Assembly: GCA_902766095.1 (NCBI GenBank)
Contig: CACXCN010000068.1
Location: 1-49,602, forward strand
Reading direction: 5' to 3'
Source: an uncultured Selenomonas sp.
GTDB lineage: Bacteria > Bacillota > Negativicutes > Selenomonadales > Selenomonadaceae
DNA: 49,602 bases
Under the pieces are notes generated by a model that saw only the letters and a list, made by a program, of their open reading frames with translations, ran no database searches and was not told where the DNA came from. Positions 1 to 36,856 of this stretch are shown one piece after another (position 1 is the stretch's first letter; each line of letters starts with the position of its first letter). The position numbers and the translations under genes were made by a program.

Positions 1-669
1 ACCTGGGACGGCATCATGCGCACGACGAACCTCGTCATCGCGGGCAAGAATGTCGTCATCGCCGGCTATGGCTGGTGCGGCAAGGGCGGCGCTATGCGGG
101 CTCGCGGCCTCGGCGCGAATGTCATCATCACCGAGGTGGATCCGATCAAGGCCATCGAGGCCGTGTTCGATGGCTTCCGCGTCATGCCGATGGATGAGGC
201 GGCGAAGATTGGCGATATCTTCCTGACGCTGACCGGCGATAAGGACATCATCCGCAAACGTCATTTCGAGTCGATGAAGAATGGTGCCGTGCTGGCCAAC
301 TCCGGTCATTTCGATGTCGAGATCAATATCCCGGAGCTCGAGTCGGTCTCGGTATCGCGTCGGCCGGTCCGCAAGAATATCGAGGAGTTCCTCCAGCCGG
401 ATGGACGCAAGCTCTATCTGCTCGGCGAGGGCCGGCTCGTCAATCTGGCCTGCGGCGATGGTCATCCGGCGGAGATTATGGATCTGTCGTTCGGCGTGCA
501 GTTCTTCTCGGCATTGCATCTGCTTCATCATGGCCAGGAATTGAAGCCGGGCGTATACCTGATGCCGGAGGAGATCAATACGCGCATCGCAGAGATCAAG
601 CTGAAATCGCTGGGCGTAGCCATCGATGAGCTCACGCCGGAGCAGAGAGCTTACCTGAACATGGATTGA
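1..669 (+). CDS. ahcY: adenosylhomocysteinase, 3' part (5' end outside window)
   Basis: S-adenosylhomocysteine hydrolase reversibly splits SAH into homocysteine and adenosine in the cytosol, using a tightly bound NAD. The reading frame is open from base 1 ([17 protein letters not shown]), so the ATG at 16 is internal and the true start lies upstream. Visible are the NAD-binding GYGWCGKG motif, the [10 protein letters not shown] segment after the second Rossmann strand, GDKDII, and the C-terminal [20 protein letters not shown] block typical of the family. The C-terminus is complete (YLNMD, stop at 667-669). It precedes mtaD by 65 bases on the same strand, which suggests an operon for SAH and MTA recycling. 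The family assignment is secure. Confidence 0.96.
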
Positions 670-734
670 GACATACCGCAAATGGGGAAAGGCGGACAGT
701 CAATCATATATTTCAACTACAGCAGGAGGAGAAT

Positions 735-2012
735 ATGAAAACTCTTATCAAGAATGTCAATGCCTTGTTACCGGACGGTACGACCCCACAGACGAATATT
801 TGTATAGACTGCGATAAGATCGTGGCAATCGGCGAGGTGCCGGAGCATTTCCATCCGAGCCACATCATAGATGGCACGGACCATCTGGCCATACCGGGGC
901 TGGTCAATGCCCATACGCATGCTTCGATGACGCTGTTCCGCAGCTATGCCGATGATATGATGCTGCAGGAATGGCTCGAGGACAAGCTCTGGCCGCGCGA
1001 GGCTCTGATGACGAAGGGTGATATCTACTGGGGCGCTATGCTCGCTATGGTCGAGTTCATCAAGACTGGCACGACGTCGTTCCTGGATATGTATGGTCCC
1101 TATATGGAGCTTGTGGCCGAGGCTACGATGGATGCCGGTCTGCGTGGTGTGCTGTCGCGCGGCATGATCGGGCTGGCGCCGGATGCTGACGCAAAGCTCG
1201 AGGAGAATATCGAGCTGTACAAGAATTTCCATGGGGCTGATAATGGCCGGATCACGGTCATGTTCGCACCGCATGCTCCCTACACATGCCCGCCGGACTA
1301 CCTGCGCAAAGTAGCCGAGACGGCGAAATCGTTCGGCGCCGGCATCCATATCCACATGCATGAGACGCAGCGCGAGGTCGATGACTACATCAAGCAGTAT
1401 GGCAAGCGCAGCTTCAAGGCTGTAGAAGAGACGGGGATATTCGATAATCCGACGGTGGCTGCTCACTGCGTCCACCTCGATGAAGAGGATATCGCCATCA
1501 TAAAGAAACATCACATAAGTGTCGCCCATAATCCGGGCAGCAACCTGAAGCTGGCCAGCGGCATCGCTCCGGTGCCGCGTCTGCTCGCGGAGGGCGTGAA
1601 TGTCGCTCTCGGTACTGACGGTGCAGCCTCGAATAATAATCTGGACATGCTGGAGGAAGTGAACCTCGCTGCCATGATCCATAAGGGCAATACGAACGAC
1701 CCGCTGGCCGTACCGGCGCTGACGGCGATGAAGATGGGCACGGAGAACGGTGCGAAAGCGCTCGGACTCAAAAATGTCGGCCGTCTCGAGAAGGGCTGGA
1801 AGGCAGATATCACGCTGCTGAACATGCAGGGACCGGCCTGGTGCCCACGCCACAATCTGCTCTCGCTGGCGGTGTATTCCGCTCATAGCGAGTCGGTGGA
1901 TACGGTGCTCGTCGATGGTCGCGTACTCATGGAGAAGGGCGAGCTCCGCACGCTCGATGAAGAACGCATATACGCTGAGGCGCGGCGCTGCGCGAAACGT
2001 CTCTGCTACTGA
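735..2012 (+). CDS. mtaD: 5-methylthioadenosine/S-adenosylhomocysteine deaminase
   Basis: Amidohydrolase-superfamily enzyme of 425 residues that deaminates SAH and/or methylthioadenosine to the inosyl compounds. Metal ligands are visible: HTH at residues 60-62 ([11 protein letters not shown]), [17 protein letters not shown], and the catalytic Asp in [13 protein letters not shown] (about residue 295). The [10 protein letters not shown] segment is typical of MtaD/TrzN-like proteins. I chose ATG 735 because AGGAGGAG lies 6-8 bases upstream and the protein then begins MKTLIKNVN as family members do; an upstream in-frame extension to 666 has no ribosome site. It sits between ahcY and ftsK with short gaps. 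Having both SAH hydrolase and SAH deaminase side by side is notable. Related guanine or chlorohydrolase activities are the main alternative. Confidence 0.92.
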
Positions 2013-2032
2013 TTTTTACCCAAGGTGATAAT

Positions 2033-4561
2033 TTGAACAAGAAAACTACGGCTCGCCGTACGACGAAGCGCAAGAAAAGAACGACCAGGAAGACGGCAGC
2101 CAGGAATGCTGCGCCTGCCGTCAGCGGGCGCAAATACGAGCTCGTGGGGCTGGTGCTGTTCGCGCTGGGACTCATATCGCTGCTGGGCTTGTTCGGGCTG
2201 AGTGTCGGACCTTTCGGCACTTATTTCGCCAAGGTCCTGCACTATATGTTCGGTGTCGGAGCGGTCGTCGTTACCTTGCTCATCATGCTGATCGGCTATC
2301 AATATATGAGCCACCATCACGGACTTCACTATTCCGTGCGTTTCTTCGGCATTGCTGCTCTGTTCATCGTACTGCTGGCCATATGGCATCATTTCGTCAT
2401 CCCGGTCGGGGCCGAGGTGATGCCGGATAGCCTGCCGCGCGGCGGGGGGCTCCTGGGCGGCAGCCTGCTGTTCGGCCTGCGCAAGATTTTCGGTGTCGAT
2501 GGGACGATCATCGTGCTTGGCATCAGCTTCATCGGTTCCATACTGCTCTCTACGAGCTGGTCGCTGGCCCGCGGTCTGAACAAGACGGAGGAAAAGGTGG
2601 CCAAGGGCGCCGATGTCACAGGCTCGGTGCTGACAGCGGCTTATGACAAGATGGCAGAGGCCGGCGAACGGGCCGAGGAGCATGTCGTATCTTCGGTCAA
2701 GGCCCGCGTGAAGCGCCGGGCTGCCTATAATCAGGAGCGGGATGGCTCGGTAGATGATCCTGCAGAAACAGCATCCGCAGAGCCCGCAGATGAGCGGATC
2801 TCCCCGACCGGCTCGGCCGCCGGTGTGGGTGCGGTGGCTGATATCAGCCATGACCGCGTCATGGGGGAGGTGCTGCGGCGGGCAGAGGAAGATGCCGCTG
2901 AGGAGGCTGGAGATGATTTCCAGGCCGATACCGGAGCCGATGCGCCGACACCGCAGTTCACTATAGAGTACAGCCGCGAGCCGGCTGCAACGACGTCTGC
3001 GGCCCCGGCGGCAACGGTCTCGTCCGCGCCCGTCTCGACACCTGCACCAGCCCCGACGGCTGCCGCGGGCGAGGGGGCAGCGGAGCCGGTCCAGCCAGCT
3101 GTGCCGCCCTATGTGTTGCCGCAGGTGACTGAAATACTCGACAAGCATGTCAAGAAGCATGATGATGCGCTGGAAATAGAAATACAGGAGAAGGCCGGGC
3201 ATCTGGCCAAGACGCTGAATGATTTCCGTGTGAAGGCGCATATCATAAATGCCTGTCACGGTCCGGCGGTCACCCGCTATGACCTCGAGCCCGCTCCGGG
3301 CGTGAAGGTCAGCAAGATTACCGGACTGGCTGAGGATATAGCCCTGAGCCTCGCAGCTCCGTCCGTGCGCATCGAGCCGATCCCTGGCAAAGCCGCCATC
3401 GGCATCGAGGTGCCGAATGACAAGCTCGAAGGGGTGCCATTGCGCGATGTGCTCGACAATGACCGCTTCTACAAGGCAAAATCGAAGCTGACCGTCGGTC
3501 TGGGCATGGATATCAGCGGACAGGCGATATTTGCCGATCTGGCGAAGATGCCGCATCTGCTCGTAGCCGGCACGACCGGTTCCGGCAAGTCCGTATGTAT
3601 CAACTCGCTGATAACAAGCATCCTGTTCAAGGCAAAGCCGGATGAGGTGAAGTTCATCCTGATCGACCCGAAGATGGTCGAGCTATCGAATTACAACGGG
3701 ATACCGCATCTGATGGTGCCGGTCGTCACGGAAGCCAAGAAAGCAGCCTCTGTGCTCAACTGGGCCGTTCAGGAGATGGAGAAGCGCTATGCAAAATTCG
3801 CCGAGACCGGTGTTCGCAAAATGGAAAGCTTCAATCATAAGTTCCCGGAGGAAAAGATGCCGTCCATCGTCATCATCATCGATGAGCTGGCCGATCTCAT
3901 GATGGTGGCACCGCATGATGTCGAGGATGCCATCTGCCGTCTGGCGCAGAAAGCCCGTGCAGCCGGCATCCACATGGTGCTGGCGACCCAGCGCCCGTCG
4001 GTCAACGTCATAACCGGCATCATCAAGGCGAACATCCCTTCACGCATTGCTTTCGCTGTAGGTTCGCAGGTAGATTCGCGTACCATACTCGACCATGGCG
4101 GAGCCGAGAAACTGCTGGGCAAGGGCGATATGCTGTTTGCTCCGGTAGGCTCGACGAAGCCGACGCGCGTGCAGGGAGCTTTCGTCAGCGATGATGAGGT
4201 CGAGCGTTTGCTTGACTTCATCCGGGCACAGGGACAGAAGGCGGAGGCCAATGAGGAAATCATAAAATTCACAGAGCAGGCTATGGCAGAATCTGAGGCG
4301 GAGTCCGAGGAAAAAGGCAGTCATCGCAGTCCGGCCCGCGATGAGCTATTGCCAGAGGCAGTAGAGCTCGTCATGTCGACCGGCCAGGCGTCGGCCTCGA
4401 GCCTGCAGCGGCGCTTCCGCGTCGGCTACACGCGGGCGGCCCGGCTCATCGATACGATGGAAGAACTCCAGATCATCGGTCCCAGTGCCGGCGGCAATAA
4501 ACCGCGCGAGATACTGATGAGTTCCGATGAAGCGATGGCGGCTTTAGGGACTCAGAACTGA
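2033..4561 (+). CDS. ftsK: DNA translocase FtsK/SpoIIIE
   Basis: Septum-anchored double-stranded DNA pump of 842 residues that clears chromosome ends during division. The start is TTG 2033, four bases after an AAGGTGAT ribosome site; a Lys/Arg-rich cytosolic tip (residues 1-35) comes first. Four hydrophobic segments lie at about 37-190, then an Ala/Pro/Glu-rich linker to about 360, then the RecA-like motor with Walker A GTTGSGKS (513-520) and Walker [11 protein letters not shown] (about 610). The C-terminal winged-helix gamma domain ([15 protein letters not shown] to the end) is the part that reads polar DNA signals. The gene starts 20 bases after mtaD and ends just before a clear terminator. 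Length and domain order are normal. Confidence 0.96.
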
Positions 4562-25572: not shown

Positions 25573-27834
25573 ATGGAACAAGGTCAGACTAAGAAAATAT
25601 TGCTGGCTGGCGGCCTTGGCTTCTGCCAGGTCCGTTTGCGGCAGGTATTCCAGAAAGAAGGCTGGCAATGCTGGTCGCGTCCCTCGGCGATGGCCGCAGC
25701 CGATGATGACCGGTCACATCTCTATGAGCTGATGCGCACCGAGAACATCCCCGTCGTGATGTATATGCTCGGCCGTCCGCAGACGGTGTCCGAGGGGGAG
25801 CAGGAACTGCAGCATCTGCTGGGATTCCTGCACGTCATGACGGATATTCTGTCGGCTACCGCTGCCTATGGCGGCGATTTGCACAGCTTTTACCTGATCT
25901 CCTATACGGCCGCCGACGATACGGCCCGCAATCAGGAAGTGCTGCCGCAGGCGGCTGCCATGGCGGAGCAGGTTGTGTCCATTTGGGCGCAGAGTCATGA
26001 CGTCAGACTGGGGCTGTTGCGGCTGCCAGAGATCTACGGGCCGGGGGATGATATAGCGCGCAGCCTGCTGAGCCGCTGGTTGTCCAGAATCCTGCCGGTG
26101 GAACAGCAGCAGGCTTTGCAGATACCGCCGGCAGATTTCGTCGTGCCCGATCTGGCTGAAGCGACGGATATGGCCGTGGACGATGCAGGGAGGCTCCAGC
26201 ACTATATGACGGATATCGTCTATGTGGATGATGCCGTCTATGCTATGGCAGCAGCGGTCCTGCGCGAGTTCGAGGGACGGCTGACGATAGCGACAGGGAA
26301 CGGTATATCTGTCGCGGCGCTGTGGCAGGAACTGACTCGTCTGACCGGCAAGCAGGTCGCAGCCTATGTACGACCGGTTTACCAACACGCCGCTGCCGGT
26401 GATGCGGCGTCAGCTGGCGAGTCCCGGCCGCGCCTGATGCTGATGCCGTCCTCGCGGCAGGTGTCTGCAGAACGTATGGCGGAGGAGGAACTGGGGTGGC
26501 ACTGTCGTTATGATACGGCCACAGGACTGGCGGCACTCTGGGAGGACATCCGGTGCCGAGGCCGGCAGGCTGTCGCACGTCGGGATTTCATCCGGCATCA
26601 GAGCCGCTGGCAGACCTGGCGCCGGCGGTCCGTACCATATGTCGAGAATATCGTCGGAGCTATGCTTATGAGCGGGGTGGCTTTCCTGCAGGGCGGCACG
26701 CCGATCAACCATCAGACCGGTCTCGATATGAATTTCATCTATATCGGCACCATGGGGCTGCTCTACGGGAAGCTGCAGGCAGGGCTTGCGATGCTGTTCT
26801 CGCTCGTCATGCTCATATCCGGCTGGCTCCTGCAGGGACGGGAACTGGCCTCACTGGCTTATCAGCCGCAGAGCTCCATGCATGTCATACTCTATATATT
26901 CGTAGCGGTTCTGACCGGGTATTTTGCTGACAGTCGCCGCTATGAGCGTCAGGAAGCCAGCTGGCATGAAGAGCAGGCCCGGGAGCGGTTTGATTTCCTG
27001 CGTCATCTGTATAACGAGAATCAGCAGATCAAAGACAGGCTCTACCATCAGATCGTGAACTCCGATGACAGTATCGGTCTATTGTACAGCATCGTACGCC
27101 GCCTCGACTCCGTGCGCATGGAGGATGTGTTTACCCAGGCGGCAGCCGTGACTTCGCAGATCATGGGGACGCGCGATATCGCGCTCTACGTGATGGGGCA
27201 GGATCGTCTCTACATGCGTCAGAAGATACATATGGGGCCGACAGCCGCTACTCAGCCTCGGTCACTGCGCATCGATGATTATCCATATCTGCAGACACTG
27301 GTGCAGGAGCATCATATCTTCGTTAATCGGGAGCTCGTAAAGAACTATCCCGATATGGCGGCACCAATCGTATATCAGGGCGAGGTTATCGCGGTGGTGC
27401 AGATATTCGGATTGCAGTTCAACCAGTGGAGCCTGCATCAGCAGAACCTGCTGTCCGTTACGGCCCGGCTCATCGCTGCCTCCATGGGGCGGGCGTATGA
27501 GTACGAGCTGGCTGTAGCCGCTGAACGATACATAGCCGGGACACGTCTGCTGAAGCCTGACGAACTGGATGCCATAAGGCAGGAGCTCCGCAGCCGCCGG
27601 ACGGTGACCGGCAATTATCCCGTCAGCATTCTCAGGGTGGATATGACAGGAATCGATTTCCAGACTCTGGATCAGCGGCTCAGCCATACGATACGCAATG
27701 AGGATTTCGTGGGCGTGCATGGCGACGATGTCTATATCGTGCTGCCGGATGCCGATGCCGAAGTGGCAGCCATGGTACAGAAACGTCTGGCGAAGGCTGC
27801 GGTACAGACGGAGATATTGCCTGAAGCGGTCTGA
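25573..27834 (+). CDS. pelD: PelD-like c-di-GMP receptor with N-terminal epimerase-like (SDR) domain
   Basis: Membrane protein of 753 residues. Residues 1-330 look like an extended SDR/epimerase: AGGLGFCQ at 12-19, LPEIYGPGDD near 151-160, YVDDAVYAM at 217-225. The Gly-rich loop is incomplete and no YxxxK is obvious, so catalysis is doubtful. About four spans lie at 356-450, then a short coiled coil, a GAF domain (about 490-640) and a degenerate GGDEF domain. The active site reads GDDVY (717-721), but RNED at 708-711 keeps the RxxD c-di-GMP inhibitory site five residues upstream, as in Pseudomonas PelD. It therefore probably senses c-di-GMP and switches on PelF. It is first in a pelD-E-A-F-G order. 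Confidence 0.85.
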   Translation: MEQGQTKKILLAGGLGFCQVRLRQVFQKEGWQCWSRPSAMAAADDDRSHLYELMRTENIPVVMYMLGRPQTVSEGEQELQHLLGFLHVMTDILSATAAYGGDLHSFYLISYTAADDTARNQEVLPQAAAMAEQVVSIWAQSHDVRLGLLRLPEIYGPGDDIARSLLSRWLSRILPVEQQQALQIPPADFVVPDLAEATDMAVDDAGRLQHYMTDIVYVDDAVYAMAAAVLREFEGRLTIATGNGISVAALWQELTRLTGKQVAAYVRPVYQHAAAGDAASAGESRPRLMLMPSSRQVSAERMAEEELGWHCRYDTATGLAALWEDIRCRGRQAVARRDFIRHQSRWQTWRRRSVPYVENIVGAMLMSGVAFLQGGTPINHQTGLDMNFIYIGTMGLLYGKLQAGLAMLFSLVMLISGWLLQGRELASLAYQPQSSMHVILYIFVAVLTGYFADSRRYERQEASWHEEQARERFDFLRHLYNENQQIKDRLYHQIVNSDDSIGLLYSIVRRLDSVRMEDVFTQAAAVTSQIMGTRDIALYVMGQDRLYMRQKIHMGPTAATQPRSLRIDDYPYLQTLVQEHHIFVNRELVKNYPDMAAPIVYQGEVIAVVQIFGLQFNQWSLHQQNLLSVTARLIAASMGRAYEYELAVAAERYIAGTRLLKPDELDAIRQELRSRRTVTGNYPVSILRVDMTGIDFQTLDQRLSHTIRNEDFVGVHGDDVYIVLPDADAEVAAMVQKRLAKAAVQTEILPEAV

Positions 27835-27858
27835 GTGCCACTGCACGAGGGAGTGATG

Positions 27859-28836
27859 ATGATGGGCTATATAAGCAGTATCGCTGGTCTGTCGGGCGGA
27901 CCGTTCGCCATGGGGCATGCCTTCCTATGCCTGGGCTATTTCCTGCTCATGCTCATATTGCCATATCCGCTCGGAGCAGGCGGCTGGAGGCGCGGGCTCG
28001 TAGAGACCTGTCTCGTCGTCGTGCTGCCTGTCGCTGGTATCATCATGCTCGGGCTGTACCATATTGTCGTCACGCTGCTGCATCTGACGAAGGGGCATCC
28101 CCCGGAACAGCCTGATTACGGGATGGGGTTCTCGGTCGGACGACAGCTGCCGGAGAATGTCATACCGCTGAACGATGCATATCTGGTGGACAGTCAGCAG
28201 CAGAAGCGTTTTTTCTTCACGAATGCCATCAAGCAGGCTGTCGTCGACAACAACAATATCCTGAAGATGGCCGTTCATGATAAAGACCGCGAGATTGCTT
28301 ACTACGCGGTGTCGATGCTGACGACGAAGATGGAGAAACTCGAAGCGCGCATATTCGCTCAGGAGGAGATGCTCCGACAGTTCGATGCCCGTGCGGATGC
28401 CGCCGATGCGCAGCCGGCATATGTCGATGCTCTGGCCGGGTATGAGCGGTTGCTGCATGAGTATCTGTCAGAGAAGGAGTTCGTGGATCACGTTTCCTGG
28501 CGTCTGAAACAGGCTGACTATATAAAACTATTGGAACGCCTTATCAAGATTCGTCCGCACAAAACCGATTACTATGTCCGTCTCGTGCAGCAACTGCTGG
28601 ATACGGAGCGCTATCCCGAGGCGGAGTCTGTATGCCAGAGCATGCTGACCATATTTCCCCACGATGAAATCAGCTACCTGACGACGATAGCGCTTTATCA
28701 GGCATGGCATCAGCCTGGGAAAATGCAGGCCGTGCTGCAGCAGCTCAGGCGGGCACCGATCATGCTTTCAAATGAGGCGTTGCGCGTGATAAGGTTCTGG
28801 AGCCAGAAGCCAGCTGGGAGGAATGCAGATGAATAA
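27859..28836 (+). CDS. pelE: PelE-like membrane TPR protein
   Basis: Protein of about 325 residues with two N-terminal spans (GHAFLCLGYFLLMLILPYPL and a second at VETCLVVVLPVAGIIMLGLYHIVV) followed by a cytosolic helical part with TPR-like repeats near the end (YYVRLVQQLLDTERYPEAESVCQSML). This matches the topology of PelE, which binds PelD and supports the synthase complex. Starts cluster: GAGGGAG (27847-27853) serves ATG 27859 or 27862 best, ATG 27856 is close, and GTG 27835 directly after the pelD stop has no site. Its stop overlaps the next gene by eight bases. Similarity is read from layout and position as well as sequence, so the call is less sure than for PelF or PelG. Confidence 0.75.
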   Translation: MMGYISSIAGLSGGPFAMGHAFLCLGYFLLMLILPYPLGAGGWRRGLVETCLVVVLPVAGIIMLGLYHIVVTLLHLTKGHPPEQPDYGMGFSVGRQLPENVIPLNDAYLVDSQQQKRFFFTNAIKQAVVDNNNILKMAVHDKDREIAYYAVSMLTTKMEKLEARIFAQEEMLRQFDARADAADAQPAYVDALAGYERLLHEYLSEKEFVDHVSWRLKQADYIKLLERLIKIRPHKTDYYVRLVQQLLDTERYPEAESVCQSMLTIFPHDEISYLTTIALYQAWHQPGKMQAVLQQLRRAPIMLSNEALRVIRFWSQKPAGRNADE

Positions 28837-30742
28837 GCGGGCTGTACTATTGATATGCGTACTGGTCATGGCGCTCGGACTGCTTGTCCAGTTCAACCGT
28901 ATGGATGGCTTGCTGCGCCTGCTGCCTTCACGCAGCCACGATATCCATCTGACGGATACGGTCAGTCTGGATTCGGAGGAGGGGCGCGACCAGTATCTGA
29001 TCATCTATGATCCGCTCAGCGTGCAGAGTGTGCTGACGCGGCATAACATCGTGAAGATGCTGGCCCAGCAGAAAAAATCAGTGACGGTGCGCAAGCTGAA
29101 CGGTGAAGCATTGCCAGCCGCACAGGATGACGGTATAGAAGCCGTGGTACCGACCGCGGATGGGACATATGGCGATCTGCAGTCTTATAAGGGTGTACTG
29201 CTCATAACCGGCAATCTGGAGCAGGTAGCCGGCTGGGAGGAACTGTGCCAGTATGTCGCTGCCGGTGGCAATATGGCTGTACTGGAGCATGTCGATGAAC
29301 ATCTGGCAACGGAAGCACCGGCACGGCTGCAGGATATAGGCATCACTGCTCTGCAGGGCGTCCGTGTGGTGCCCGGATTGCAGATCGACAGTGATTTCTT
29401 GCTCGGAGGACGCGGCCTCCGGATCAGCAATGTCCGCGCCTATAATAACGAGTCTGCCGTCGTGCAGCTCGCGCCCGGGGCCAGGGTGGCCATGTCGGCG
29501 CTCGATGGCGTTCCCTTGCTATGGGAGTATGATGATGGTGCCGGAAAAATATTCGTCTACAATGGTCAGGAGCGCGATGATAAGACGAATCTCGGCGTAT
29601 ACAGCGCTATCGTCAGCCATATGGGAGAGGATACACTGTATCCGGTCATGGCGGCCAAATTGTTCTACATCGATGATTTCCCTGCTCCGGTCCCGGAGGG
29701 GAACGAGTCCCGTATCTATGAGGAACTGCACACAGATACGGCAGGGTTCTTCCGCAATATATGGTGGCCGTATATGCAGCAGAATGCCAAGGATTTCGGG
29801 CTCAAATATACCGGGGTCATCATAGAGACCTACGGCGACCAGGTCGATCCTCCCTTCGAGGGGACGCGTAAACAGGAGTCGCTGGACAGCGCGATCATAT
29901 ATGGGCGCGAACTGCTGAACATGGGCGGCGAACTCGGCCTGCATGGCTATAATCATCAGCCGCTGGCTCCGGCAGGCTATAACCAGGCTGCGCTGGATTA
30001 CGTTCCCTGGCCGGATGAGTCCGCCATGATCGCCGCGCTGACAGAACTGCGGCGCTATGTAAAATCGCTTTATCCCGACTATGAGTTCCGCGTATACGTG
30101 CCGCCCTCGGACATACTCAGTCCAGAGGGGCGCGATGCCGTCTGCCAGGTATTTCCCGAAGTGAAGACATTCGCCTCGTTGCATGACGGGCTGGCCGAGG
30201 ATAAAGCCTATTATCAGGATTTCGAGCAGGCGGCTGATGGGCGCTATGAGCTGCCGCGTCTGACCTCGGGCTACATCCCGACCGAATCCATGCAGTGGGA
30301 TTTCGTATCGGCGGCGAACTACATCGGGATATTCTCCCATTTCGTCCATCCTGACGAGATCATGTACCCTGAGAGCCGGGACAAGACCTGGGCTCAGATG
30401 GAAGCGGCCCTGCAGTCCTGGCTGACTGATGTCGGGAGCCGGTTCCCCTGGCTGCAGGCGATGACCGCCTCGGAGGGGATGGAGGCGCTGTCCGACTATC
30501 TGAGCCTCGATTACCGCGTCCGGCGCAGTGCCGATCATATAGACATCGTGACGAATGAACTGCCGCGACCGGTTCATTTCGTACTGCGCACGGAACATGA
30601 GCCGGATGAGGCACAATCGACCGGCTGTACCATAGCACCCGCTGGTGAATATGGGCCGGGCGTATATATCGTGACGATGAACGCGGCGAAAGCCCGCATC
30701 GTATGGCGTGATGTCACCCCGGAAAGTCAGGAAAAGAAGTGA
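28829..30742 (+). CDS. PelA-type deacetylase (DUF2194-like, membrane-anchored)
   Basis: Protein of 637 residues with an uncleaved signal anchor (KRAVLLICVLVMALGLLVQF). A Rossmann-like N-terminal half (YLIIYDPLSVQSVLT ... GVLLITGNLE) precedes a polysaccharide-deacetylase barrel. Catalytic candidates are D282 and D283 (FYIDDFPAP) and H372 and H376 (LHGYNHQPL), the Asp-Asp and HxxxH metal signature of CE4 enzymes. It would deacetylate the GalNAc/GlcNAc-type Pel polymer outside the inner membrane. It corresponds to the deacetylase half of Pseudomonas PelA; the hydrolase half is a separate gene at 33716. ATG 28829 has GGGAGG eight bases upstream and overlaps pelE. Confidence 0.82.
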   Translation: MNKRAVLLICVLVMALGLLVQFNRMDGLLRLLPSRSHDIHLTDTVSLDSEEGRDQYLIIYDPLSVQSVLTRHNIVKMLAQQKKSVTVRKLNGEALPAAQDDGIEAVVPTADGTYGDLQSYKGVLLITGNLEQVAGWEELCQYVAAGGNMAVLEHVDEHLATEAPARLQDIGITALQGVRVVPGLQIDSDFLLGGRGLRISNVRAYNNESAVVQLAPGARVAMSALDGVPLLWEYDDGAGKIFVYNGQERDDKTNLGVYSAIVSHMGEDTLYPVMAAKLFYIDDFPAPVPEGNESRIYEELHTDTAGFFRNIWWPYMQQNAKDFGLKYTGVIIETYGDQVDPPFEGTRKQESLDSAIIYGRELLNMGGELGLHGYNHQPLAPAGYNQAALDYVPWPDESAMIAALTELRRYVKSLYPDYEFRVYVPPSDILSPEGRDAVCQVFPEVKTFASLHDGLAEDKAYYQDFEQAADGRYELPRLTSGYIPTESMQWDFVSAANYIGIFSHFVHPDEIMYPESRDKTWAQMEAALQSWLTDVGSRFPWLQAMTASEGMEALSDYLSLDYRVRRSADHIDIVTNELPRPVHFVLRTEHEPDEAQSTGCTIAPAGEYGPGVYIVTMNAAKARIVWRDVTPESQEKK

Positions 30743-30749
30743 CAAGTCT

Positions 30750-32183
30750 ATGAAGATATGTCTGTTGACAGAGGGCTCTTATCCCTATGTCGTAGGCGGC
30801 GTCTCCTCCTGGTGCCATATGCTCATGGAGGGGCTGCCCGAATATGAGTTCAGTGTCTGCTCCATCGGTGCCGAGATGAAGGACAGAGGCAACTACAAGT
30901 ACAAGCTGCCGCAGAATCTGACGAGAATCCAGGAAGAATTTCTCGATTCCATGCTCAGTCAGAAATCAAGCGGCATGTATGAGAACATATTGAGTCCCGA
31001 TGAGCGAAATGCCTTGTATGAGCTCGTGACAGGCGACAAGCCGATCGATATCACGCAGCTCGTGAATATATTCCACCAGCGCGGCCGCTTTGCGAGTGCA
31101 TTCGATATCTTCATGTCGAGCGATTTCTTCGACATCATAGAACAGGTCTACCGGGAGCGCTACAGCTATCTGCCGTTTACGGATTTCTTCTGGACGATGC
31201 GCTCCATGCTGTTGCCCTTGTTCTATCTGCTGCAGCAGAGACTGCCGGAGGCGGATGTCTATCACAGCGTGGCGACCGGCTACTGCGGGGTGATCGGGGC
31301 CATGGCTGCGACGGTCTATGGCAAGCCGTTCATGATTACCGAGCATGGCATATACTCCCGCGAGCGTGAGGTCGAGATCATAAAGAGCGACTGGGCCAAA
31401 GGCGATTTTAAATCTATATGGATACAATATTTCTATAATCTGGCCGGCCTGTCCTATGCTTCCGCTGATCATGTCTATACGTTGTTCGAGCATAATGCAG
31501 CAATCGAGCGCGACCTTGGCTGCGATTCGGAGAAGATCGGCATCATCCCGAATGGCATCCATATGGAGCGCTTTGCCGATATCGGCGAGCTGACGCCGCA
31601 CGAAGGGCCGCTCACCATCGGTGCTGTCGTGCGCGTGGTACCGATCAAGGACATCGTAACCATGCTGCGGGCATTCTTCCTCGTCAAACAGGAATTGCCG
31701 GAGGCGAGGCTGATCATCATGGGGGGCTATGAAGAGGATCCCGAGTACTACGCGCTCTGTCGGCGGACTGTGGATATGCTGCGTCTCGACGATGTCGTAT
31801 TCACGGGGACGGTGAACGTGCATGACTATATCCCGCAGCTTGATATCATGCTGCTGTCGAGCATCAGCGAAGGACAGCCGCTCGCCGTACTCGAGGGCCA
31901 GGCGGCACACAGACCGTTCATAACGACGGATGTGGGCTGCTGCCGGGAGCTGATATACGGAGGGACGGGGGATGACCTCGGCCCCGCCGGGGCCGTAGTG
32001 GCGCCGATGGATTTCGAGGCTATGGCAGCTGAGATACTGCGGCTGGGCCGGGACTTCGAGATGCGGCGGCACATGGGCAATGTCGGCTATGAACGCACGA
32101 AACGGTACTACAGATTCGAGCAGTTCATAGCTGCCTACCGGGATATCTATGCGCTGGAAGTCGGCCAGACAGGGAAAGGGTGA
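30750..32183 (+). CDS. pelF: PelF family glycosyltransferase
   Basis: Cytosolic GT4-type polymerase of 477 residues that builds the Pel chain from a UDP-sugar. The PelF signature TEGSYPYVVGGVSSW is at the N-terminus. ITEHGIYSRERE, GIIPNGI and the donor-binding EX7E (E374 and E382 in ISEGQPLAVLEGQA) follow. I chose ATG 30750 because it gives the family N-terminus MKICLLTEG; an upstream ATG at 30708 overlaps the previous gene. The ribosome site is weak, so coupling to the upstream gene is likely. It is six bases from pelG. The family call is firm; the sugar specificity is inferred from the locus. Confidence 0.93.
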   Translation: MKICLLTEGSYPYVVGGVSSWCHMLMEGLPEYEFSVCSIGAEMKDRGNYKYKLPQNLTRIQEEFLDSMLSQKSSGMYENILSPDERNALYELVTGDKPIDITQLVNIFHQRGRFASAFDIFMSSDFFDIIEQVYRERYSYLPFTDFFWTMRSMLLPLFYLLQQRLPEADVYHSVATGYCGVIGAMAATVYGKPFMITEHGIYSREREVEIIKSDWAKGDFKSIWIQYFYNLAGLSYASADHVYTLFEHNAAIERDLGCDSEKIGIIPNGIHMERFADIGELTPHEGPLTIGAVVRVVPIKDIVTMLRAFFLVKQELPEARLIIMGGYEEDPEYYALCRRTVDMLRLDDVVFTGTVNVHDYIPQLDIMLLSSISEGQPLAVLEGQAAHRPFITTDVGCCRELIYGGTGDDLGPAGAVVAPMDFEAMAAEILRLGRDFEMRRHMGNVGYERTKRYYRFEQFIAAYRDIYALEVGQTGKG

Positions 32184-32189
32184 GGCTAT

Positions 32190-33719
32190 ATGGCCGGAGT
32201 TGGATTCGAGCTGAAAAAGCTGTTCCGGGCTCGTACAGCCGTCGGGCATATTCGCGCCTACACTTATTCGGCATTGATAACAGCCGGGCCGTTTGCATTC
32301 ATGACCTGCATGATACTGGCGATACAGGTGCTGCTGTATCAGTATGCAGTTACGGATGCCGAGGCTGGCATATTCATGGGAGCCGTCGTTTATTCTTTTG
32401 TCTTTTCGCAGATATTCAGCAGCGGGTTCACGATGGTTGTGACCCGCTATCTGGCCGATTCGATCGCCGTGGGGCGCTACGCAGATATCACGGCGTCACT
32501 GTTCGGATTGCTGACGCTGCTGACGGTGGCGGGCGGCGTGGTCGCGGCCGTATTCCTCTGGCCCGGCCTGCTGCCTCCGTTCACGAAGCTGCTCATATAC
32601 CTGTTCTTCCTGTTGCTTATGATGGCCTGGGGCGAGAGCATATATTTATCGGCGATCAAACATTACAAGCGGCTGCTCGTCAGCTATCTCTGGGGCTGCC
32701 TCGTCAGTATCCTGCTGACTTGGGGACTGCTGGCTGCGGACGGCACCAGTCTGGGGCTCTCGGCCTCGCAGTGCAGCCTGCTGGCGTTGTGTCTGGGCAT
32801 CGGCCTTGTCGATCTGTTGTTTCTGTTGCATATAACGACTTATTTCGGTTGGCCGTCCGGGGGACTGAATTTTGCCTTCCTGCCTTATTTCGAGCGGCAT
32901 TGGCGTCTGTTCCTGGTAGCTTTTTTCTACATGGCCGGCCTGTTCGCACCGAATATCATCATATGGCAGGGACCTGATGGGATCAGCGTGGCCGGTATAT
33001 TCCGCTTTTCTCCGCGCTATGATGTATTGACGTTTTATGCCTTCCTATCCATACTGCCGCTCATGATGCTGTTCGTCGTATCGATGGAGACGCGCTTTTA
33101 CGAGCGCTATGCGAAGTATTTCACCCTGATCACGCATGCCGGCAACTTCCGCCAGATTGATGACGCACGCAAGGATATGGTGCAGATCCTATGGTTCGAG
33201 CTGCGCCATATCGTGGAATTCCAGTTCGTGTTCACCCTCGTAGCCTTCGTGCTGGGCAATTATATCTTCACAGGTATGAATATGCCGTATGCGGATGTGA
33301 ATCTGTTCGATGTTCTGCTGACGGCTGCGTTCTTTATCGGTCTGCTGCAGCTGTTGTACGTGCTCATGATATATTTCGACTGTCAGAAAGAGACGCTGCG
33401 CCTGTCGGCGTTCTTCTTCATCAGCAATCTCGCTCTGGGAGTCATAGGCTTGTGGCTTGGGCGGGACAGCTATGGATTCACATTCTTCCTGACATCTGCC
33501 GGCAGTTTCTTGCTGGGACTCTGGCGGCTTGACCACTATCTGAAACGCGTCAATTATTATGTATTCTGCTCGCAGCCGGTATTCGTCAGGCAGGTGCGCG
33601 GACCGCTGTCCTGGCTGGTCCGGCGGCTTTACGGCGAACGCTATGTAGAACTGGACGCACTGAAGGAGCAGGCAGTGATAGCGGGACGAACGACATGGGA
33701 TGATGGGGATGAGGCATGA
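32190..33719 (+). CDS. pelG: PelG family polysaccharide exporter
   Basis: Integral membrane protein of 509 residues with about twelve spans, of the MATE/MOP flippase-like PelG family. The N-terminus MAGVGFELKKLF is characteristic. It carries the polymer made by PelF across the inner membrane in complex with PelD and PelE. ATG 32190 comes six bases after the pelF stop. Its stop overlaps the next start as ATGA, so the hydrolase gene is translationally coupled. Length is normal. No outer-membrane porin gene follows. Confidence 0.93.
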   Translation: MAGVGFELKKLFRARTAVGHIRAYTYSALITAGPFAFMTCMILAIQVLLYQYAVTDAEAGIFMGAVVYSFVFSQIFSSGFTMVVTRYLADSIAVGRYADITASLFGLLTLLTVAGGVVAAVFLWPGLLPPFTKLLIYLFFLLLMMAWGESIYLSAIKHYKRLLVSYLWGCLVSILLTWGLLAADGTSLGLSASQCSLLALCLGIGLVDLLFLLHITTYFGWPSGGLNFAFLPYFERHWRLFLVAFFYMAGLFAPNIIIWQGPDGISVAGIFRFSPRYDVLTFYAFLSILPLMMLFVVSMETRFYERYAKYFTLITHAGNFRQIDDARKDMVQILWFELRHIVEFQFVFTLVAFVLGNYIFTGMNMPYADVNLFDVLLTAAFFIGLLQLLYVLMIYFDCQKETLRLSAFFFISNLALGVIGLWLGRDSYGFTFFLTSAGSFLLGLWRLDHYLKRVNYYVFCSQPVFVRQVRGPLSWLVRRLYGERYVELDALKEQAVIAGRTTWDDGDEA

Positions 33720-34756
33720 TGTTTCAAAAAACATATAAATGGTTGCTGGGCGGCCTGTCCGCATTGCTGACCATAGCTGGTGCAGCGACGATTTTTGCTG
33801 CCGCCGGGACGACCAGGACGACGGAGCGGCCCGCCAGCTACGCTGCGGCAATGATTGATTTGCTCAGCCAGATCAAAGCCTATGCGGCTGCCCGGCAGCC
33901 GGAATTCGAGTTCATCGGCAACGGCGCAGTTGGCCTTCTGACGTCTGACGGAGATTTGACAGTAGCGGACCGGCAGCGTGTTCTGGACAGTCTTGATGGC
34001 ATTATGGCCGAGTCGCTTTACTATCGCTGGACAGCTGATGGCTTTGCCGAAACTCCGTCAGCGGAGCGTGAACCGTACCTGCGTGCGCTGCTGGCCGCGA
34101 AGCAGACCAGCCGGCAGCAGGAAAAGCCGCTGACAGTGCTAACGCTCGACTATACCGATCGTGACCGGGCAGCAGAGAAAGCCAGGCGTCGCAGCCGCAC
34201 GAATGGATTCCTGCCGCAGATAAAGGCGGGACGCAGCCTGGACAGGCTGAACCGGAGCGAGGACAGGATGGAGCATGCTACCGGACACTCTGTGACACGT
34301 CTTTCCGAGGCCGGGAGCTTCGATATACTGCTAAATCCCGGCCGCTATCATACGAAACAGGCATATCTGGATGCGCTGCAGCACAGCGATAGCGATGTAC
34401 TCATCATCGATGCGTATTTCGGCGGTGAGATGCTGACGAAGGCTGATGTCGATAGCATCAAGCAGCGCAGAGATGGCAGCCAGCGGCTGGTATTCGCCTA
34501 TCTGAGTGTCGGCGAGGCTGCCAGCTATCGTGACTACTGGCATTCCGTATGGGCAAAGCAGCCGCCCGAGTGGCTGGAGGGCCCGAATGCCGACTGGCCG
34601 GACAGCTATCGCGTGCGCTACTGGGAACGTGGCTGGCAGGACATCCTGTACGGTCGGCCGGATTCCCAGCTCGACCGCATCATGGGCGCCGGCTTCTCAG
34701 GGGCCATGCTCGATACCATTGATGTTTATCAATATTTTTCCGCGCAGGACTTCTGA
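33716..34756 (+). CDS. PelA-type glycoside hydrolase (GH114-like), membrane-anchored
   Basis: Protein of 346 residues with an N-terminal hydrophobic anchor or signal (KWLLGGLSALLTIAGAATIFAA). A divergent middle (about 35-180) holds charged repeats. The C-terminal third resembles the endo-alpha-1,4-polygalactosaminidase fold: FDILLNPGRYHTKQAYLDAL, LVFAYLSVGEAASYRDYW (E267), RYWERGWQDIL and GFSGAMLDTIDVYQYF (D333, D336). Those acids are candidates for catalysis. It is probably the hydrolase half of a split PelA and would trim the Pel polymer in the cell envelope. The ATGA overlap with pelG places it in the operon. ATG 33719 is an equally possible start. A bidirectional terminator follows. Confidence 0.8.
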   Translation: MMFQKTYKWLLGGLSALLTIAGAATIFAAAGTTRTTERPASYAAAMIDLLSQIKAYAAARQPEFEFIGNGAVGLLTSDGDLTVADRQRVLDSLDGIMAESLYYRWTADGFAETPSAEREPYLRALLAAKQTSRQQEKPLTVLTLDYTDRDRAAEKARRRSRTNGFLPQIKAGRSLDRLNRSEDRMEHATGHSVTRLSEAGSFDILLNPGRYHTKQAYLDALQHSDSDVLIIDAYFGGEMLTKADVDSIKQRRDGSQRLVFAYLSVGEAASYRDYWHSVWAKQPPEWLEGPNADWPDSYRVRYWERGWQDILYGRPDSQLDRIMGAGFSGAMLDTIDVYQYFSAQDF

Positions 34757-35587: not shown

Positions 35588-35638
35588 AGAGGACGTAAAT
35601 GTTTTTTTCTATTTTATGAAGGGTTGTGTTATTTTGAT

Positions 35639-36856
35639 ATGAGGAAGTTCCGACTCAGCAAAAAAGCAGTGAATGAACTATGCAAGCGTTATCCGACACC
35701 GTTCCTGGTGGCATCGTCCGGGCAGGTGGCTGACTGCTACCGCTTCCTGCGTGAGCATATGCCGCATGTGAGCGTGTGCTACGCGATGAAAGCGAATCCG
35801 ACGCCGGCTTATCTGACGAAGCTCTATGCGATGGGGAGCAATTTCGATGTAGCGTCAGCCGGCGAGATCGAGCTGCTGGCCAAATTGGGCATCGAGGGCG
35901 AACGCATGATTTATGCGAATCCCGTGAAAGATGCCCGAGGGCTGGCAGCCGCCGCCAGAAATGGCGTGCGAAGATTCACATTCGATCATGTGACGGAGAT
36001 AGCGAAGATGGCAGCGGCCGTGCCGGGCGCCGATGTGCTCGTACGCGTCAGCGTGCGCAACAACAAAGCGCTCGTGGACCTCAATACGAAATTCGGTGCC
36101 AAAGCATCGGAGGCGGTCGACCTGCTGGCAGCCGCCGCCCAGGCGGGACTGCACCCGGCTGGAATATGTTTCCATGTGGGCAGTCAGTCGCTATCTACGG
36201 CAGCTTATGAGGAAGCGTTGCTATTAGTTCGCGGCCTTTTTGATGAGGCGGAAGAAAGAGGTATGCATCTGACCGATCTCGATATCGGCGGCGGTTTCCC
36301 GATACCGGATGCGTCGGGGCTGATGGTCGATGTGGCCAATATGCTCGAGGGCATCGACCGGCAGGTCGCCCGCCTGTTCCCCGAGACCAGAGTATGGAGC
36401 GAGCCGGGGCGGTTCCTCTGCGGCACATCGATGAACCTCATCGCGTCCGTCATCGGTACGAAGGACCGGGACGGTGTTCCCTGGTACATATTGGATGAGG
36501 GAATCTATGGCTGCTTCTCCGGCATCATGTACGATCACTGGACGTATCCTTTCCATACATTTGCCAAAGGGAAGCGCATACCATCGACGTTCGCCGGCCC
36601 GAGCTGTGATGGCATCGATGTCCTGTATCAGGGCTATGAGACAGCACCGCTCAAGATCGGCGATCATGTCCTGGCTACGGAGATGGGGGCCTACACTACG
36701 GTCTCGGCTACGCGGTTCAACGGCTTCGAGCTGGCCCCGGTGATCGTATGGGAGACGACCGGTCTCGCGCAGCAGAAAGGCATGCTGCAGGAGGGACCGT
36801 ATGCCGATGAATGCGAGTCGGCCGAGCCGAATATCGCTGATGAGGAGGCTATCTGA
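35639..36856 (+). CDS. ldc: lysine/ornithine decarboxylase (fold III PLP enzyme)
   Basis: Enzyme of 405 residues that makes cadaverine from lysine and putrescine from ornithine. PLP-binding K51 lies in YAMKANPTP, and the active-site Cys is C323 in GPSCDGIDVL; both positions match the Selenomonas ruminantium enzyme as I remember it. HVGSQSLSTAAYEEALLL, GGGFPIPD and EPGRFLCG also fit. In that genus cadaverine is bound to peptidoglycan and holds the outer membrane through SLH proteins, so this gene has a likely envelope role. I chose ATG 35639 because it gives the family N-terminus (MRKFRLS); GAAGGG lies 16 bases upstream, a long spacing, and TTG 35624 is the alternative. A small gene overlaps its stop. 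Confidence 0.93.
   Translation: MRKFRLSKKAVNELCKRYPTPFLVASSGQVADCYRFLREHMPHVSVCYAMKANPTPAYLTKLYAMGSNFDVASAGEIELLAKLGIEGERMIYANPVKDARGLAAAARNGVRRFTFDHVTEIAKMAAAVPGADVLVRVSVRNNKALVDLNTKFGAKASEAVDLLAAAAQAGLHPAGICFHVGSQSLSTAAYEEALLLVRGLFDEAEERGMHLTDLDIGGGFPIPDASGLMVDVANMLEGIDRQVARLFPETRVWSEPGRFLCGTSMNLIASVIGTKDRDGVPWYILDEGIYGCFSGIMYDHWTYPFHTFAKGKRIPSTFAGPSCDGIDVLYQGYETAPLKIGDHVLATEMGAYTTVSATRFNGFELAPVIVWETTGLAQQKGMLQEGPYADECESAEPNIADEEAI

Follow-up and report, generated by a model that had tools for sequence, protein, structure and literature searches.

The window analyzed here, a stretch of 49,602 nucleotides from an uncultured Selenomonas sp., carries genes for a Pel-like polysaccharide at positions 25573-34756, and neither pelB nor pelC is encoded in that interval. 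The locus raises the question of how such a polymer would leave a cell that possesses an outer membrane. A first-pass annotation of the same DNA had offered two answers: the polymer stays inside the envelope, or an unrelated exporter carries it out.

The pel operon and its host

Six genes were confirmed in the interval, all on the plus strand, contiguous, and nearly abutting, in the order pelD-pelE-deacetylase-pelF-pelG-hydrolase:

25573-27834, plus strand: pelD, 753 amino acids; matches to GAF (PF01590, E 5e-7), Epimerase (PF01370, E 4e-4), and GGDEF (PF00990, E 0.015)
27835-28836, plus strand: pelE, membrane and TPR-like protein; identified by weak TPR matches, position, and about 24-46% identity to the pelE of relatives
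28823-30742, plus strand: membrane-anchored deacetylase of the PelADA type (DUF2194; PF09960, E 2.7e-118)
30750-32183, plus strand: pelF, GT4 glycosyltransferase (polymerase); NF038011 (NCBIfam PelF), E 1.2e-116, and PF11997, E 1e-77
32190-33719, plus strand: pelG, inner-membrane exporter; PF16933, E 3.1e-121
33716-33719, plus strand: overlap of the pelG stop and the hydrolase start by 4 bases (ATGA), the slot of an additional barrel gene in most relatives
33716-34756, plus strand: GH114/GH191-like hydrolase with an N-terminal signal or anchor; PF03537, E 6e-13

All of these genes are open and full length. The first-pass annotation had recognized the pelD-pelE-deacetylase-pelF-pelG order of the Bacillus cereus type, and both the gene coordinates and the family matches bore this out. 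The PelD protein consists of an N-terminal SDR domain with degenerate cofactor and catalytic motifs, a membrane segment, a GAF domain, and a degenerate GGDEF domain (GDDVY). Such a degenerate SDR domain has been reported for the PelD of streptococci, clostridia, and actinobacteria (PMC7112168). An RNED motif, read directly from the sequence, is a candidate for the RxxD I-site that binds c-di-GMP, and the RxxD site was kept in all complete Negativicute PelD proteins compared. The PF16963 (PelD_GGDEF) profile matched none of the proteins, controls included, and was not used as evidence. The pelE gene was assigned a GTG start, and its true start may be located downstream. The deacetylase matched the structure of B. 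cereus PelADA (9zau) with an E-value of 9.1e-73, and it retains the IDDFP, HGYNH, VPPS, PR-TSGY, and SHFVHPD motifs when compared with the catalytic motifs of PelADA (PMC13254593).

The last gene is predicted to encode a GH114/GH191-like endo-alpha-galactosaminidase. The two halves of this protein matched the PelA hydrolase and the structure 9ep5 in reversed order, and the protein is a circular permutant of the known Pel hydrolases with a TIM barrel. Its AF2 model had a pLDDT of 92, and GH191 structures were matched over about half its length. Homologues from the pel regions of Negativicutes and two from fusobacteria aligned collinearly with the window hydrolase, and the permuted form is therefore common to Negativicutes and Fusobacteria.

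A PLP decarboxylase (ldc/lysA-like) was also found near the operon, at positions 35624-36856 of the window. The earlier suggestion that cell-wall cadaverine is linked to the polymer was abandoned, since ldc is not adjacent to pel in the relatives examined.

The named relatives of the window organism belong to Selenomonas and Anaerovibrio. Its genome encodes two Omp85 proteins and two TolC-type (OEP) proteins, and the host, a relative of the Selenomonadaceae, is thus a diderm, as the first-pass annotation had assumed. By sequence inspection, one of the TolC-type genes is located in an apparent Mla/TamB/TolC run and the other in an apparent efflux operon. Additionally, a single Wza-type Poly_export protein is encoded in the genome. 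The reported lack of pelB and pelC held within the stretch, and for PelB also genome-wide: the PelB barrel (PF24604) had no match in the whole genome, while the positive control, a Caballeronia plasmid, was recovered with an E-value of 4e-92. For PelC, a single Caballeronia query, run without a positive control, had no match in the genome, and this leaves room for a PelC-like lipoprotein.

A barrel protein family that accompanies PelG

The comparison of loci across Negativicutes that the first-pass annotation had called for revealed one extra gene in the pel operon of relatives from the same family, mostly between pelG and the hydrolase gene. Its product, of about 600-800 amino acids, contains a signal peptide, a long acidic helical (coiled-coil) region, and a C-terminal outer-membrane beta-barrel, and its last residue is F or another hydrophobic residue in most members. 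No family in Pfam or NCBIfam matched the protein, and no known relative was found for its helical region. Among the family members, Pfam returned no TPR match; an SLH domain was absent from those scanned. The proposed search for TolC-like proteins and TPR-containing barrels produced the two TolC-type proteins and a barrel protein, the latter lacking TPR. Members of the Selenomonas type (L055 173-2569 and L077-L092) also have an arginine-rich N-terminus, in which RMTRxRRxR is repeated before the signal segment.

An AF2 model of a relative's copy (L077, from Selenomonas sp. AE3005, and not the copy of the window genome) had a mean pLDDT of 84. It includes helices at residues 7-139 (133 residues) and 189-298 (110 residues), followed by a barrel at 303-668. 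Judging from the secondary structure of the model, the barrel would have about 16-18 strands, and the two helices would pair as a hairpin-like coiled coil. A fold search with the barrel matched outer-membrane proteins that included BcsC, PgaA, AlgE, and PelB (9h80); no sequence match was found to PelB, BcsC, or PgaA. Since porins, BamA, and FadL scored like PelB, BcsC, and PgaA, the fold supports the assignment as a barrel only. A description of this family was not found in the open-access papers searched, nor was any paper that links Negativicutes with Pel or with BcsC, or diderm Firmicutes with polysaccharide export.

In a survey of 300 Negativicute genomes, 47 had a PelG match above the cut-off, and 56 encoded the barrel family. 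The barrel family was present in every one of the 47 pelG-positive genomes, in contrast to nine of the 253 pelG-negative ones, including G026 and G101 (Fisher p 3e-46, uncorrected for phylogeny). The two genes adjoin each other in 44 of the 47, and the pairs span at least seven families. The exceptions were the window genome and G027, where the genes are unlinked, and G012, where they are 5.5 kb apart. In G027, pelG stands alone (L023 5551-7038) with the barrel gene elsewhere (L057 3500-5797), which makes this a second scattered pel system. Conversely, PelG and the barrel form a single open reading frame of 1135 amino acids in G110 (L107 9171-12578), with a segment resembling a signal peptide between the two parts.

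The PelG and barrel phylogenies have their major groups in common (distance r 0.79). For example, G192, G273, and G301, which belong to other families, fall inside the Selenomonadaceae group in both trees. These common groups and placements suggest a joint transfer of pelG and the barrel gene.

Family members were also found beside genes for other polysaccharides, including GT2/BcsB, GT2/deacetylase, and cellulose-type genes (L101, L102, L103, L104, L105, L106, and L108). Specifically, the barrel gene neighbors three kinds of gene set: GT2, BcsB, and a DUF2334 deacetylase (identified by Pfam in G157 and, from identical gene lengths and order, in G145); GT2 and a deacetylase (by Pfam in G148 and, from a comparable order, in G224 and G269); and a BcsA-like GT2 with PilZ together with MBOAT and GH5 (by Pfam in G224 and, from a comparable order, in G110). 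This re-use beside other synthase loci is the best argument that the barrel protein exports polysaccharide. Charge per 100 residues was about -12 in the helical region and -1.7 in the barrel of pel-linked members, in contrast to -5.9 and +1.5 in members beside other synthases. The more acidic pel-linked members would fit a cationic cargo, with the contrast resting on few independent lineages.

Taken together, it appears somewhat probable that Negativicutes own a general class of exopolysaccharide exporter, composed of a coiled-coil helical part and a beta-barrel and not derived from the TPR/barrel exporters. The class would have three or more unrelated synthases as partners (PelF/PelG, GT2 with BcsB and a deacetylase, and a BcsA-like cellulose synthase), and its fusion to PelG in one genome would place the export proteins of both membranes in one frame.

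The unlinked barrel gene and the proposed export route

The 4-base overlap of pelG with the hydrolase gene means that the barrel gene is absent from this slot in the window. The window genome (G000) carries one copy of the family, unlinked to pel and outside the window:

Contig C84 (L055) 173-2569, minus strand: barrel gene, 798 amino acids, intact frame

The encoded protein matched a family model built without it with an E-value of 4e-156. In the barrel tree, this copy is sister to the operon-borne genes of Selenomonas ruminantium (100/99), and it is, on these sequence grounds, an ortholog of the barrel genes in pel operons. A paralogous origin was rejected on the same tree. Tetranucleotide use of C84 correlated with that of the window at r 0.958, compared with 0.20-0.82 for other species, and contamination was rejected on this match. 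Divergent to the relocated gene, at L055 2834-3874, is the gene for a response regulator of apparent HD-GYP type, a putative c-di-GMP phosphodiesterase.

We consider it likely that a Pel-like polymer of alpha-1,4-linked (N-acetyl)galactosamine is produced under the control of c-di-GMP and is released from the cell by an outer-membrane exporter that is specific to Negativicutes and takes the place of PelB and PelC, with the exporter gene of this genome having moved and acting in trans. The export step is inferred from the genes, their conserved synteny and co-occurrence, the orthology of the moved gene, and the predicted barrel fold. In the proposed sequence of events, binding of c-di-GMP to the RNED site of PelD would switch on PelF, which would polymerize UDP-GalNAc, and PelG together with PelE and PelD would move the chain across the inner membrane. 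The membrane-anchored deacetylase would render the polymer cationic. Guided through the periplasm by the exporter's acidic helical region, the polymer would pass outside through the C-terminal beta-barrel, with the permuted hydrolase trimming it. The exporter gene, which in most relatives is located between pelG and the hydrolase gene, would serve this route from another contig. It is not co-transcribed with pel, which was counted against export, as was the presence of the barrel family in some genomes without pelG (G026, G101).

It was judged improbable that the polymer is retained within the periplasm or at the peptidoglycan, with the barrel as a structural or porin-like protein that travels with pel. 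Negativicutes do possess tethers between the outer membrane and the peptidoglycan that combine a coiled coil with a barrel (OmpM), and the barrel fold is unspecific. Machinery of the Gram-positive type also functions without an outer membrane (PMC7112168). However, the co-occurrence in all 47 genomes, the adjacency, the PelG fusion, and the re-use with other synthases are more in keeping with a conduit than with a tether, and the scanned members lack the SLH domain. Of the two answers in the first-pass annotation, the unrelated exporter is thus favored and retention appears unlikely, given that the barrel is present in all 47 pelG-positive Negativicutes and here in unlinked form.

Alternatively, a general exporter, either of the TolC type or the Wza-type Poly_export protein, could carry the polymer in this genome, with the unlinked barrel gene as a relic. 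The genome does encode candidates of both kinds. We regard this as very improbable, since the TolC-type genes are placed in the apparent efflux operon and the Mla/TamB cluster, and the barrel gene has kept an intact frame of 798 codons that is orthologous to the pel-operon copies. The unlinked gene and the long branches on which both the PelG and the barrel of the window genome are located in their trees might indicate a decaying, non-functional system. This was considered the least probable of the explanations, since none of the genes, the unlinked one included, is interrupted or truncated, and those catalytic and I-site motifs that were checked have been retained.

The description as a Negativicute-type pel operon with one gene moved away suits the locus better than that of a Gram-positive type without an exporter. 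Diderm Firmicutes are relevant to the question of how the outer membrane was lost or retained. A Gram-positive-style pel operon equipped with an outer-membrane exporter of its own would exemplify one inner-membrane synthase fitted to different outer envelopes. The barrel family also provides a testable exporter candidate for the biofilm polymers of rumen and oral Negativicutes.

Comparison with known systems

The window operon is close in build to the B. cereus pelDEADAFG operon (PMC7112168, PMC13254593). Both have the same order from pelD to pelG, a stand-alone deacetylase of the DUF2194/CE26 type with its motifs, a separate hydrolase, and a PelD with a c-di-GMP site. The degenerate SDR domain of PelD is a further point of agreement, with the PelD of streptococci, clostridia, and actinobacteria. 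In contrast to B. cereus, the host here is a diderm, the hydrolase is encoded within the operon on the same strand and is circularly permuted, a barrel gene is part of the Negativicute system, and no accessory genes of the CotH type were seen. Unlike the monoderm Gram-positive hosts of Pel, the window genome encodes Omp85, TolC, and the barrel family.

The PelD, PelE, PelF, and PelG core is common to the Pseudomonas-type pelABCDEFG operon (PMC12141448), and both systems are predicted to include a barrel in the outer membrane and, attached to it, a long helical part in the periplasm. They differ in that the window genome lacks a PF24604 PelB barrel and gave no match to the single PelC query, and its exporter candidate is without TPR repeats. 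The hydrolase and deacetylase that are fused in Pseudomonas PelA are two separate genes here. According to a published proposal (PMC12141448), an N-terminal helix that stays uncleaved allows the PelB of P. aeruginosa to connect the two membranes. By analogy, the arginine-rich N-terminus and the fusion with PelG make a PelB-like bridge between the membranes thinkable for the barrel family.

With BcsC, PgaA, and AlgE, the family has in common the outer-membrane barrel fold, neighbors of the synthase-dependent polysaccharide kind, and a helical periplasmic part, which consists of TPR in BcsC and PgaA. However, this part is coiled-coil-like rather than TPR in the Negativicute family, no sequence similarity was found, and other porins match equally well. 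The hydrolase resembles GH191 enzymes (TM1410 and the Myxococcus alpha-galactosaminidase) and the PelA hydrolase in both halves and in its TIM barrel, and it differs from them in the reversed order of the halves.

In the fusobacterial pel loci of Cetobacterium somerae (L075 13519-14436) and Fusobacterium vincentii (L076 13734-14684), a different barrel-like protein of about 305-316 amino acids is encoded directly after pelG. In these two species, PelG is also extended at its C-terminus by a sequence that includes a lipobox-like segment and repeats of the YNEKGW type. The occurrence of another barrel-like gene in the two fusobacterial loci seen points to repeated recruitment of outer-membrane channels by Pel systems.
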